NCBI GenBank assembly: GCA_018824085.1
Contig: JAHJHI010000047.1
Location: forward strand, 1 to 64,000
From: Gammaproteobacteria bacterium
GTDB taxonomy: Bacteria > Pseudomonadota > Gammaproteobacteria > Burkholderiales > Rhodocyclaceae
Length of the DNA stretch: 64,000 nucleotides
Direction: 5' to 3'
Part shown: positions 23,898-44,921 of the stretch, piece by piece
Layout: every line of letters begins with the position of its first letter
Position numbering within the stretch: the first letter of the stretch is position 1
Translations under genes and position numbers: made by a program
Notes under the pieces: model-generated
Told to the model about the DNA's origin: nothing
Database searches by the model: none
What the model saw: only the letters and a program-made list of their open reading frames with translations

Positions 23898-25610
<1,713 letters not shown>

Positions 25611-38603: not shown

Positions 38604-40391
38604 ATGAACAGGAAGCTACTGGTCACTGCACTGGCGTTGTTCGGCAACGTAGCCGCATTCGACGCACTGGCGCAAACAGCGCCGACGCAGTTCAATCTGA
38701 TCGAGGCAACGGTGCCGCAAATCCAGGCAGCCATGCAGTCCAGGCTGCTGTCGTCCGAACAGCTGGTCAATATGTATCTCGCCCGTGTCGCCGCCTACGA
38801 CGACGCGGGTCCGATGCTGAATTCCTACCTTTACGTCAATCCGGCCGCGGCCGCCGAGGCCAACACGCTGGACGCGCTTCGCTTCGTGCCGGGCAGGGAA
38901 GTGGGTCCGCTGTACGGCATTCCGGTCTTGCTGAAGGACATCATCAACACCCGCGACATGCCGACCACCGGCGGAGCCGTGGCGCTGAAGGAATCGATCC
39001 CGCTGCACGACGCCTTCATCACGAAGAAGCTGAGGGCCGCCGGGGCGATCATCATCGGCAAGGCGACACTGACGGAATTCGCCAACTTCGTGACCAGCGG
39101 CATGCCGGCCGGCTACAGCTCCTACGGTGGCTACGGCTTCAATCCGTACAACCCCGTGCCGCTGCCCGGCGGCGACGGACGTCCGCTGCTGAGCCCGAGC
39201 GGCTCCAGCGCCGGTTCGGGCATTGCGGCGGCGGCGAACCTGTCCGCACTGACCATCGGCACGGAAACGTCGGGGTCCATCCTGAGCCCCAGCAACGCCA
39301 ACGGCATCGTCGGCATCAAGCCCACGGTGGGTCTGGTCAGCCGCGACGGCATCATCCCCATCACGGCGGACCAGGACACCGCCGGACCGATGACACGTTC
39401 AGTGACCGACGCGGCCATCCTGCTCGGCGTCATCGCCGGCTACGACCCGGACGACCCCGCGACCGAAGCCTGCCTGGACGCCGACAAGTGCCCGGCCGAC
39501 TACACCGTCTTCCTGAACAAGGCCGGACTGGCAGGCGCACGCATCGCGGTGCCGCCTTTCCCGAGCAACCGCACGGCCATCATGGAAGCGGCGATACAGA
39601 CGATGCGTGATCTCGGTGCCACCGTCGACACCATCCCCGCCCTCGCGAGCGTGGGTGTGTCCGGCATCCTGAACTACGGCCAGAAACGCGATGTAAACGC
39701 CTACTTCGACAAGAGCGTGCCGGACACCTTTCCGATCCGGTCGCTGGCGGATCTGATCGCGTTCAACGAGGCGCATCCGGACATCGCGCTCAAGTACGGG
39801 CAGACCTCGTTCATCGCATCGCAGGCGCTCGACATTTCCGAAGGCAGCGCCGATACGCTGAAGTACATCGCTGACCGGGACCTCGGGTTCGAACGTTCGC
39901 GCGGCCTCATCAACGATGCACTCAACGGCCCGGACGGCATCGGGGGAACGGAGGACGACTACGACGCGATCGTCTATTCCGGCAGCGGAAGTGCGGGCAC
40001 GTGGGCACGCGCCGGATATCCGAGCATCGTGGTGCCCGGCGGCTTTGTCGAATCGAACGGTGCCCAGATTCCGTCGGGCGTCTCGTTTGCCGGACGGCCG
40101 TTCGGCGAAGGACGCCTGATCGAGCTCGGCTATGCCTTCGAACAGGCCACCGGTGCCCGGATTCCGCCAGCAAGCGCACCGGCGCTGCCGACCGACGTGG
40201 TCCGGCTGGGCGACGTCAATGGCGACGGCTGGGTCGACAGCACCGACGTATCGCTGGTCACGAAACGCATGAATCAGCCGGCCAGCGGCCCCTACGACAA
40301 GGCCGACGTCGACCATGACGGTCGGATCACCGCGCTCGACACGCGCAAGCTCGCGACGCTCTGCTCGCGTGCCCGCTGCGCCACGAAGTAA
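38604..40391 (+). CDS. secreted amidase with C-terminal dockerin
   Basis: 595 residues. Signal peptide (about 1-25, cut after LAQ). Amidase-signature domain (about 35-525) with the Ser-Ser-Lys triad: Lys 111 in LLKDIINT, cis-Ser 201 in SGSSAGS and nucleophile Ser 225 in GTETSGSIL. The last 60 residues form a type I dockerin with two calcium loops, DVNGDGWVDSTD (starting at 537) and DVDHDGRITALD. Dockerins bind cohesins, and the next gene encodes one. Substrate is unknown; the family cuts amides, including peptide or aryl amides. Confidence 0.88.
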   Translation: MNRKLLVTALALFGNVAAFDALAQTAPTQFNLIEATVPQIQAAMQSRLLSSEQLVNMYLARVAAYDDAGPMLNSYLYVNPAAAAEANTLDALRFVPGREVGPLYGIPVLLKDIINTRDMPTTGGAVALKESIPLHDAFITKKLRAAGAIIIGKATLTEFANFVTSGMPAGYSSYGGYGFNPYNPVPLPGGDGRPLLSPSGSSAGSGIAAAANLSALTIGTETSGSILSPSNANGIVGIKPTVGLVSRDGIIPITADQDTAGPMTRSVTDAAILLGVIAGYDPDDPATEACLDADKCPADYTVFLNKAGLAGARIAVPPFPSNRTAIMEAAIQTMRDLGATVDTIPALASVGVSGILNYGQKRDVNAYFDKSVPDTFPIRSLADLIAFNEAHPDIALKYGQTSFIASQALDISEGSADTLKYIADRDLGFERSRGLINDALNGPDGIGGTEDDYDAIVYSGSGSAGTWARAGYPSIVVPGGFVESNGAQIPSGVSFAGRPFGEGRLIELGYAFEQATGARIPPASAPALPTDVVRLGDVNGDGWVDSTDVSLVTKRMNQPASGPYDKADVDHDGRITALDTRKLATLCSRARCATK

Positions 40392-40425
40392 CGCCCCCCA
40401 CCCCACTTACCGGACTTCATCCATC

Positions 40426-40989
40426 ATGAAAATCCTCTCGTCCCTTCTGTTCTGCTGCCTGCTCGCCGCCGGCTCCGTTCAGGCCCAGAGCCTTTCCGTC
40501 GTGCCGTCCTCGCCGGTCGTTGCGCCGGGCGACACGTTCAGCATCGACATCGTCGTAACCGACCTTGGCGACACTGCGGCCAGCACACTCGGCACCTACG
40601 ACCTGTCCGTCGCCTTCGATCCGTCGCTGGTGAAGGTGTTCGGCATCACCTTCGGCAACGGTCTCGACGTATTCGATCTCGGTTCGCTGTTCACCGTTTC
40701 GTCGGGCTTCGGCACCATCAGCCTGTACGAGCTGTCGTTCGACTCGATCGACGATCTGGTGGCGCTTCAGCCGGATGCCTTCACGCTGGCCACGCTGACG
40801 TTCAAGGCGATTTCGCTCGGGACGACACCGTTCGACGTGTCGGTCACCGCGTTCGGAGATGCCTTCGGCGACAGCCTGCCGGTGACGCTGACCGGCAGTT
40901 CCGTCGCCGTGGTGCCGGAGCCGCAGACGCTTGCGCTCATGCTGGCCGGACTGGGCCTCATCGGCTTCGCCGCCCGCCGCAACGGCTGA
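40426..40989 (+). CDS. cohesin-domain protein with PEP-CTERM sorting signal
   Basis: 187 residues. Signal peptide 1-21 (cut after VQA). A cohesin-like beta domain (about 22-158) starts SLSVVPSSPVVAPGDTFSID and has LGTYDLSVAFDPSLVKV and LATLTFKAISLGTTPFDVSV, the usual cohesin pattern. The C-terminus is a PEP-CTERM signal: VPEP (163-166), a hydrophobic helix, then RRNG. An exosortase would cut it and attach the protein at the surface. It starts 34 bases after the dockerin amidase, presumably as its docking partner. Confidence 0.87.
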   Translation: MKILSSLLFCCLLAAGSVQAQSLSVVPSSPVVAPGDTFSIDIVVTDLGDTAASTLGTYDLSVAFDPSLVKVFGITFGNGLDVFDLGSLFTVSSGFGTISLYELSFDSIDDLVALQPDAFTLATLTFKAISLGTTPFDVSVTAFGDAFGDSLPVTLTGSSVAVVPEPQTLALMLAGLGLIGFAARRNG

Positions 40990-41043: not shown

Positions 41044-41119
41044 CGCCGCCCTTGACTTGATCTGCCCGTCCTTTTAAGGTTCGGGCTTGCGCCGATTTGA
41101 GCCTTCAGCTTGCGGGCGC

Positions 41120-41185
41120 GTTATAAATTCCGCTAAAGCGAGCTGTCCGACCCGTCAGCACGCTCCGGCGCGCGGCGGGTTTTTT
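41120..41185 (+). promoter_or_regulatory. metH leader: promoter and attenuator-like hairpin
   Basis: A TTGAGC (41096-41101) and TATAAA (41122-41127) pair could form a promoter. About 25 bases on, ACCCG (41150-41154) and CGGGT (41176-41180) close a GC-rich hairpin followed by seven Ts, ending 52 bases before metH. A terminator in a leader would allow attenuation. No known methionine riboswitch core was recognised. It could instead terminate an upstream transcript. Confidence 0.35.
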
Positions 41186-41237
41186 GTTGTCCGTACGGCG
41201 CCCGCACCACACGGGTTACGTTCCACGGAGAACACTG

Positions 41238-44921
<3,684 letters not shown>

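Follow-up and report, generated by a model that had tools for sequence, protein, structure and literature searches.

Two neighboring genes on the plus strand of a 64,000-nucleotide stretch of contig JAHJHI010000047.1 (the window, at its full length), from a Methyloversatilis genome of 4.28 Mb in 56 contigs (G000), encode a secreted amidase that ends in a dockerin domain and a small protein that combines a predicted cohesin domain with a PEP-CTERM sorting signal. We consider it highly probable that they form a dedicated cohesin–dockerin pair by which a secreted cargo is held on a protein sorted by exosortase. That dockerin and cohesin genes of these kinds are linked far beyond chance, and across separate lineages, is strongly supported, and the window pair would be one case of a module that is widespread: cargoes of various kinds bear a dockerin, usually two-cysteine-tailed, and the gene next to them specifies a small cohesin with a sorting tail.

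A secreted amidase ends in a dockerin and precedes a small cohesin gene

The cargo gene occupies an open reading frame at 38604–40391 that encodes 595 residues, and the coordinates of the first-pass annotation of this stretch proved correct. The following frame, also on the plus strand, is open over 40315–40989; because its orthologues begin at the codon corresponding to ATG 40426, this is the probable start, giving a protein of 187 residues. Both genes are probably carried on one transcript, and no terminator-like or promoter-like site was found on the plus strand between 38220 and 41300. The features of the pair are as follows.

38604..40391, plus strand: cargo gene, secreted amidase (peptide-amidase type, amidase-signature family) with C-terminal dockerin (PF01425, PF00404, solved relatives)
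38604..38672, plus strand: probable Sec signal peptide of the cargo, residues 1–23, AxA preceding Q24 (by eye)
38691..40181, plus strand: amidase domain (aligned to peptide amidase 5ac3, residues 29–523)
40206..40388, plus strand: dockerin domain of the two-cysteine-tail subfamily (PF00404, alignment A4, AlphaFold2, Foldseek)
40212..40247, plus strand: calcium loop 1, DVNGDGWVDSTD (sequence)
40305..40340, plus strand: calcium loop 2, DVDHDGRITALD (sequence)
40359..40388, plus strand: C-terminal tail LCSRARCATK with the C-x4-C pair (dockerin alignments)
40392..40425, plus strand: intergenic gap of 34 nucleotides between the co-directional genes
40426..40989, plus strand: cohesin gene, 187 residues with signal peptide, single cohesin and PEP-CTERM (Pfam; start from orthologues)
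40483..40914, plus strand: cohesin domain, modelled part (AlphaFold2, Foldseek, VIA-align)
40912..40980, plus strand: PEP-CTERM sorting signal with VPEP, hydrophobic stretch and basic end (PF07589, 38.8 bits)

The cargo matched the Amidase family (PF01425, E = 5.8e-63), and its nearest solved relatives include the peptide amidases 5ac3 (E = 9.6e-85) and 1m21/1m22 (E = 3.9e-82); from sequence, we infer that its substrates may be peptide amides. The Ser-Ser-Lys of the amidase signature is present, with K111, S201/S202 and S225 in register with 5ac3, and we take these to be the catalytic residues. At the C-terminus, Dockerin_1 (PF00404) was matched at E = 4.3e-12, with 46.5 bits against a cut-off of 22.9, and by eye both 12-residue loops, DVNGDGWVDSTD and DVDHDGRITALD, are complete, as the first-pass annotation had claimed; presumably they follow the EF-hand-like calcium loop pattern. 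A 12-row dockerin alignment showed the two loops, an invariant arginine and, near the end, an invariant pair of cysteines with four residues in between; the tail cysteines were likewise invariant in an 8-row alignment. In a search of the Protein Data Bank (PDB), the dockerin profile found as its top match 1ohz_B, a dockerin from a solved complex (E = 2.2e-10), with an alignment that ends at position 46 of 61, ahead of the two-cysteine tail. The AlphaFold2 model of the window dockerin had a predicted local distance difference test score (pLDDT) of 86.3, and its best 22 Foldseek rows were all dockerin-bearing entries (top 2y3n_B, E = 0.002), with matches at E = 0.002 or weaker for this very short chain. 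When six dockerin domains of the two-cysteine-tail subfamily were scanned with NCBIfam, none reached a cut-off.

The product of the second gene has a cohesin fold (a nine-strand, jelly-roll-like sandwich), which we regard as established by structure prediction; the outcome that the first-pass annotation named as refuting its reading, a predicted structure without this fold, was thus not obtained. The AlphaFold2 model built from an 8-row alignment had a mean pLDDT of 90.0 and a predicted TM-score of 0.83; among the five models, two were near pLDDT 90 and three near 77. All 50 listed Foldseek rows were cohesin-bearing (1g1k_A, E = 1.5e-10), as were the entries in the first 45 rows from VIA-align, whose best Z of 17.4 was to 2vn6_A and 1g1k_A, the former over 134 residues at 2.0 Å. 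An Archaeoglobus fulgidus cohesin, 2xdh, was also among the fold matches. At the sequence level, a phmmer search of the PDB with the single window cohesin returned no more than two hits, both to an unrelated enzyme at E = 0.28. A 10-row family profile gave 11 hits up to E = 1, led by the cohesin 5lxv (E = 1.9e-4); the second was an immunoglobulin-like protein, 9ncf (E = 0.0082), followed by the cohesins 1g1k (E = 0.012), 2vn5 (E = 0.014), 1aoh (to E = 0.049) and then weaker ones. Orthologues of 54–59% identity in G002, G003, G006 and G012 exceed the cut-off of the Pfam cohesin family (PF00963). The window cohesin itself scored 18.3 bits (E = 0.0028), under the cut-off of 24.1, and a PF00963 search of its own genome at E ≤ 0.001 gave no match; we attribute the shortfall to divergence, and the cohesin call rests on the fold. 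Pfam was dropped as sole judge of the cohesin on account of this score, and the fold and the family profile were added. We regard the cohesin call as sound because the orthologues pass Pfam, the family profile finds solved cohesins and the predicted fold matches them. A signal peptide is present by eye at the N-terminus, and the tail passes the PEP-CTERM cut-offs of both PF07589 (E = 5e-9) and TIGR02595 (19.9 against 16 bits). The first-pass description of this gene as a lone cohesin with a PEP-CTERM signal was thereby borne out.

Dockerin and cohesin genes are linked across the class

Linkage was surveyed in 369 genomes drawn evenly from the class. The dockerin profile (A4, E ≤ 1e-5) and the cohesin profile (A2, E ≤ 1e-6) were run separately over the same genomes; A2 leaves aside the signal peptide and almost the whole PEP-CTERM region. 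The aligned dockerins had been read in genes beside distant cohesin matches. A dockerin was found in 16 genomes, a cohesin in 14 and both in 13 (Fisher p = 2.6e-20). In every one of these 13, the two genes lie on the same contig and strand, less than 3 kb apart. When the two surveyed genomes with rows among the queries (G000 and G105) were left out, both were found in 11 genomes (p = 1.2e-17). Of the 13 linked genomes, 11 have the two-cysteine tail. In G495, a divergent small cohesin lies 10 bp from a dockerin gene (E = 0.004–0.005, local scan only), and in G237 and G457 the dockerin matches are weak, partial and tail-less, with no cohesin match. The pair was also found in metagenome-assembled genomes (MAGs) of Nitrospira, Halioglobus and a gammaproteobacterium (L155–L157).

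Within Methyloversatilis, the amidase–dockerin occurs in 6 of 13 genomes at seven loci, of which G012 has two near each other. A cohesin follows at six of the seven loci, and at the seventh the contig ends inside the dockerin. The G012 locus (L141, 6902–13573) holds the whole amidase–cohesin module twice, about 4 kb apart, with another called frame between. A laboratory strain, M. thermotolerans 3t, is among the carriers of the pair (L151). Five amidase homologues that lack a dockerin (38–45% identical) had no cohesin match within 1.5 kb on each side.

Gene order, dockerin position and cargo vary among pairs

Layout was compared in a table of 32 pairs. The second of the G089 dockerins on contig C98, 5.9 kb from the cohesin, was listed with the table and is not among the 32. 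The local scan also covered, outside the table, L145 (truncated within the dockerin by the end of its contig), L158, L202 (a cohesin alone), and L203 and L204 (tail-less dockerin matches, no cohesin), and L151–L154, being the same places as L142, L144, L143 and L136, were counted once. The dockerin gene comes first in 20 pairs and the cohesin gene in 12, and the intergenic gap between called frames is at most 221 bp in 31 pairs and 793 bp in the remaining one. The dockerin may be C-terminal in its cargo, N-terminal by the signal peptide, or internal (L193).

Cargo families recognized by Pfam were amidase, purple-acid-phosphatase-like metallophosphoesterase, M12B metalloprotease, PKD/Ig repeats, subtilase, glucose/sorbosone dehydrogenase-like, NHL and IgGFc-binding families, GDSL esterase, RHS repeats (sub-threshold in some cases), and Endonuclease I with an exo/endonuclease-phosphatase domain; several cargoes had no Pfam family apart from dockerin or EF-hand matches. 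The RHS-type proteins (L132 and L133 in G089, L194 in G213) carry a tailed dockerin near the N-terminus, and their repeats are clear in L194 and sub-threshold in L132 and L133. Around the G144 pair (L135, 2–10294), a PD40 propeller gene precedes the pair and type-II-like gspG and gspE follow it, with an unscanned frame between; a propeller-like frame, by eye, also lies upstream of the G121 pair (L137).

Some candidates were set aside. Other dockerins (G144 on C69 and C44, G035, G118, G117 on C19, and two in G127) were not counted, as they show neither the two-cysteine tail nor, in the loci fetched, a cohesin match. Dockerin_1 places in G117 (C15) and G058 were excluded for want of a match to the local dockerin profile, and the SAR202 locus L158 was excluded because its cohesin and dockerins stand in a different, multi-domain layout.

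A second, phosphatase pair occurs in Methyloversatilis

A second kind of pair, consisting of a phosphatase with a tail-less, divergent dockerin and a cohesin-like PEP-CTERM protein, was found in G000, G002, G004, G005 and G010. The phosphatase pairs of G000 and G002 (L205 and L206) are in neither the local scan nor the pair table, and reading of L206 was by eye alone. In the genome of the window the pair lies on the minus strand (L205, G000:C37, 4982–9102), and the partner is a PEP-CTERM protein of 402 residues whose C-terminal half is cohesin-like. By Pfam, the two dockerins scanned matched at E = 0.073 and 0.22, and one of the three cohesins scanned at E = 0.074, the other two giving nothing; local profiles matched at E = 2e-5 to 0.002. 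Pfam being weak here, the second pair rests on layout and local profiles, not on curated scores. Two dockerin types in one genome, each encoded beside its own cohesin type, suggest separate specificities.

The genome search for other dockerins proposed in the first-pass annotation returned this one further case: at E ≤ 0.1, Dockerin_1 gave two matches in the genome, the amidase and the phosphatase (E = 0.019). Matches to the Pfam cohesin family at E ≤ 0.01 were the window cohesin and one type-II-like secretin (L209, G000:C44, 5766–8099, minus strand), whose weak C-terminal match (E = 0.0051) is below the cut-off. A type-II-like secretin of the relative G017 (L210, 3922–6306) has a clear C-terminal cohesin domain (E = 7.8e-12). 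In 21 relatives, the own genome included, a cohesin match falls in a frame of 767–970 residues (by eye), of which only two were checked to be secretins.

Exosortases occur in most genomes with the pair

The genome holds 68 PEP-CTERM matches at E ≤ 0.1. A search for exosortase, also proposed in the first-pass annotation, found two (PF09721, E = 1.6e-75 and 3.0e-69). Across the class survey an exosortase was detected in 125 of 369 genomes, among them 11 of the 13 linked genomes. With G495 included, the frequencies are 12 of 14 genomes with the pair versus 113 of 355 others (p = 7e-5), and all 13 relatives checked that have the pair or, in G011, its truncated dockerin also have an exosortase. The association is in the expected direction and is not absolute, and lineage may contribute to it. 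Inspection by eye found a literal PEP in the tails of 21 of the 31 tabulated cohesins.

Weighing the tethering reading

In the proposed mechanism, the amidase and the cohesin protein would both be exported via their signal peptides, and one of the two exosortases would process the cohesin protein at its PEP-CTERM tail. The processed cohesin would join the cell envelope or the exopolysaccharide matrix. The amidase's dockerin would fold around calcium and bind the cohesin encoded by the neighboring gene, and the docked amidase would be kept with the cell or matrix, with no diffusing away. We infer the dockerin–cohesin binding, its calcium dependence, the exosortase cleavage and the final location from the known function of both domains. 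The matrix is a likely final place because PEP-CTERM proteins are proposed to join exopolysaccharide (PMC1569441), and because one of them is involved in Aquincola floc formation, its overexpression raising bound and lowering soluble polysaccharide (PMC9850573).

Several observations weigh against this reading. The rows of the survey profiles were found partly by adjacency, to which omission of the two source genomes is a partial answer. G274 has a cohesin and no dockerin match, and the tail cysteines are absent from the linked genomes G194 and G434. In G089, which has two cohesins, three of five tailed dockerins do not adjoin a cohesin (two lie on different contigs, where the 1.5-kb flanks gave no cohesin match, and the third is at a distance of 5.9 kb); G121 has two related dockerins, one without the second cysteine, on contigs apart from the linked pair. 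In G390, one cohesin is flanked on each side by a tailed dockerin, and from the extra or unlinked dockerins of these three genomes it follows that one cohesin may serve several cargoes. No exosortase above threshold was found in two genomes that carry the pair, G345 (a fragmentary match only, E = 0.02) and G434 (85% complete, no match). By eye, a variant such as VPLPAT or VPSPGT stands in place of a literal PEP in ten of the 31 cohesin tails. In NCBIfam, L134 just passes TIGR02595 (16.3 against 16 bits). Sub-threshold matches to sorting-tail models reach E = 4e-4 or better for L190, L197 and L201; the best obtained for L196 and L156 was E = 0.2 or weaker, and L191, L193, L137 and L157 gave no match. 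Sorting is therefore less certain for these ten. Finally, dockerin and cohesin similarities are correlated over the 32 pairs (r = 0.67, 0 of 5000 permutations) and over 24 pairs (r = 0.39, 4 of 5000), the smaller set omitting L133, L139, L140, L141 (twice), L142, L143 and L144. We do not rely on this correlation, because shared ancestry alone can produce it.

Could the pair instead bind inside the envelope? In the periplasm or at the inner membrane, the cohesin would then act as a holdase, chaperone or inhibitor of its cargo, exosortase release would free the complex, and the purpose of docking would be export or safety instead of display. Several cargoes are hydrolases (proteases, nucleases) or RHS proteins that could need control, gene order is variable, 12 of the 32 pairs beginning with the cohesin gene, and the crossing of the outer membrane by PEP-CTERM proteins is unsettled in the literature as far as its accessible text goes. 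Cargoes with PKD/Ig repeats, however, have no obvious toxicity, cohesins known so far tether, and we know of no cohesin that acts as an inhibitor of its cargo; we judge binding inside the envelope improbable. More doubtful still is that the dockerin's true partner is another cohesin, such as the C-terminal domain of a type-II-like secretin, with cargo recruited to a secretion pore. The weak match in the own-genome secretin, the clear domain in that of G017 and the position of the G144 pair just upstream of type-II-like gspG and gspE would fit such recruitment. Yet 17 of the 21 relatives with a cohesin match in a secretin-length frame have no dockerin match, for which reason we keep this explanation as a weak rival only, and the linkage of neighboring genes favors the small cohesin as partner. 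That the amidase merely happens to lie beside one of many PEP-CTERM proteins, whose cohesin likeness reflects a generic beta-sandwich, might be entertained given the 68 PEP-CTERM matches in the genome and the sub-threshold Pfam score. The uniformly cohesin-bearing rows among the Foldseek and VIA-align matches considered above speak against it, and we rejected chance neighborhood, which has hardly any probability left, as contradicted by the class survey, where the linkage recurs in all 13 genomes that hold both genes.

For the tethering of cargo by a neighboring cohesin, the first-pass annotation had offered the image of a single-enzyme cellulosome with an amidase as cargo. Its pairing of amidase and cohesin is strongly supported, in view of the linkage across the class. 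The image itself is too narrow, because the cargoes are many and unrelated, a second pair carries a phosphatase and some genomes contain several such dockerins for each cohesin.

Other features in the window

Downstream of the pair, a SAM_alpha riboswitch match at 41079–41157 (36.7 bits, cut-off 36) lies upstream of a frame at 41184–44921 that is, by eye, methionine synthase. Elsewhere, the Rfam family 5_ureB_sRNA was matched at 24051–24336 on the minus strand (154 bits), antisense to a frame at 23898–25610. This match may merely reflect conserved urease coding sequence.

Relation to known systems and significance

By analogy, the nearest architecture is that of ScaE of Ruminococcus flavefaciens, which likewise joins one cohesin to a sorting signal at the C-terminus, recognized by an enzyme in the membrane. 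ScaE is a single-cohesin anchoring scaffoldin with an LPXTG motif, attached by sortase, that receives proteins through their dockerins (PMC2930009). The enzyme there is a Gram-positive sortase, whereas here it would be a Gram-negative exosortase; and ScaE carries a whole cellulosome and a cellulose-binding protein, in contrast to the one non-glycosidase cargo encoded next door. The predicted folds of both partners and the two dockerin calcium loops are those of cellulosomal pairs (Clostridium cellulolyticum 2vn5, C. thermocellum 1ohz), whose cargo differs from the window's, which is not a glycosidase. No multi-cohesin scaffoldin was found in the genome at the sensitivity used, at which divergent cohesins escape, as that of the second pair did, and no dockerin-bearing glycoside hydrolase was among the genome's Dockerin_1 matches at E ≤ 0.1. 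On the features tested, a scaffoldin and a dockerin-bearing glycosidase, the system is thus not a cellulosome, within the limits of the profiles.

Cohesins and dockerins occur outside cellulosomes, as does the A. fulgidus cohesin 2xdh, and in this respect the window pair is like them; such non-cellulosomal modules were reportedly treated by Peer et al. in 2009. Adjacent cohesin and dockerin domains are noted in syntrophic sulfate reducers, partners of ANME archaea (PMC10553843), and dockerin-like and cohesin-like modules in Saccharophagus (PMC2386152); in the accessible parts of both sources, these are described without an exosortase link and, for the sulfate reducers, without a two-gene cargo module, unlike the pairs reported here. 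With the PEP-CTERM/exosortase system the window protein shares the C-terminal PEP, hydrophobic stretch and basic end, and an exosortase in the genome; as far as the available descriptions of that system go, its PEP-CTERM proteins are not presented as docking sites. The words "cohesin" and "dockerin" are absent from the text of PMC1569441. A literature search on PEP-CTERM with dockerin, with or without cohesin, turned up no account of such a module, and among the papers it could reach, which excluded most subscription titles, none contained both PEP-CTERM and dockerin. One on exosortase with cohesin found them mentioned together only for methanotrophic archaea, where the text available treats the two apart, and one on Methyloversatilis with PEP-CTERM found nothing.

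We think it probable, with less assurance than for the tethering itself, that these pairs represent an undescribed Gram-negative display class, in which exosortase-sorted single cohesins would receive cargo through mostly Cys-tailed dockerins, the cargo being exchangeable for almost any secreted protein. Its range would take in many families within a single proteobacterial class as well as at least one Nitrospira MAG, and one genome could hold more than one such pair, each mutually selective (amidase and phosphatase in Methyloversatilis). The two-gene arrangement with its many cargoes appears to be a general means of keeping proteins tethered outside the cell, and it offers natural parts for enzyme display on Gram-negative cells. 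The role of cohesins and dockerins outside cellulosomes was described as unknown in PMC5244752; a linked pair with an exosortase tail makes such a role directly testable in freshwater bacteria. PEP-CTERM proteins, in turn, gain a possible molecular job, as a docking site in the envelope or matrix.

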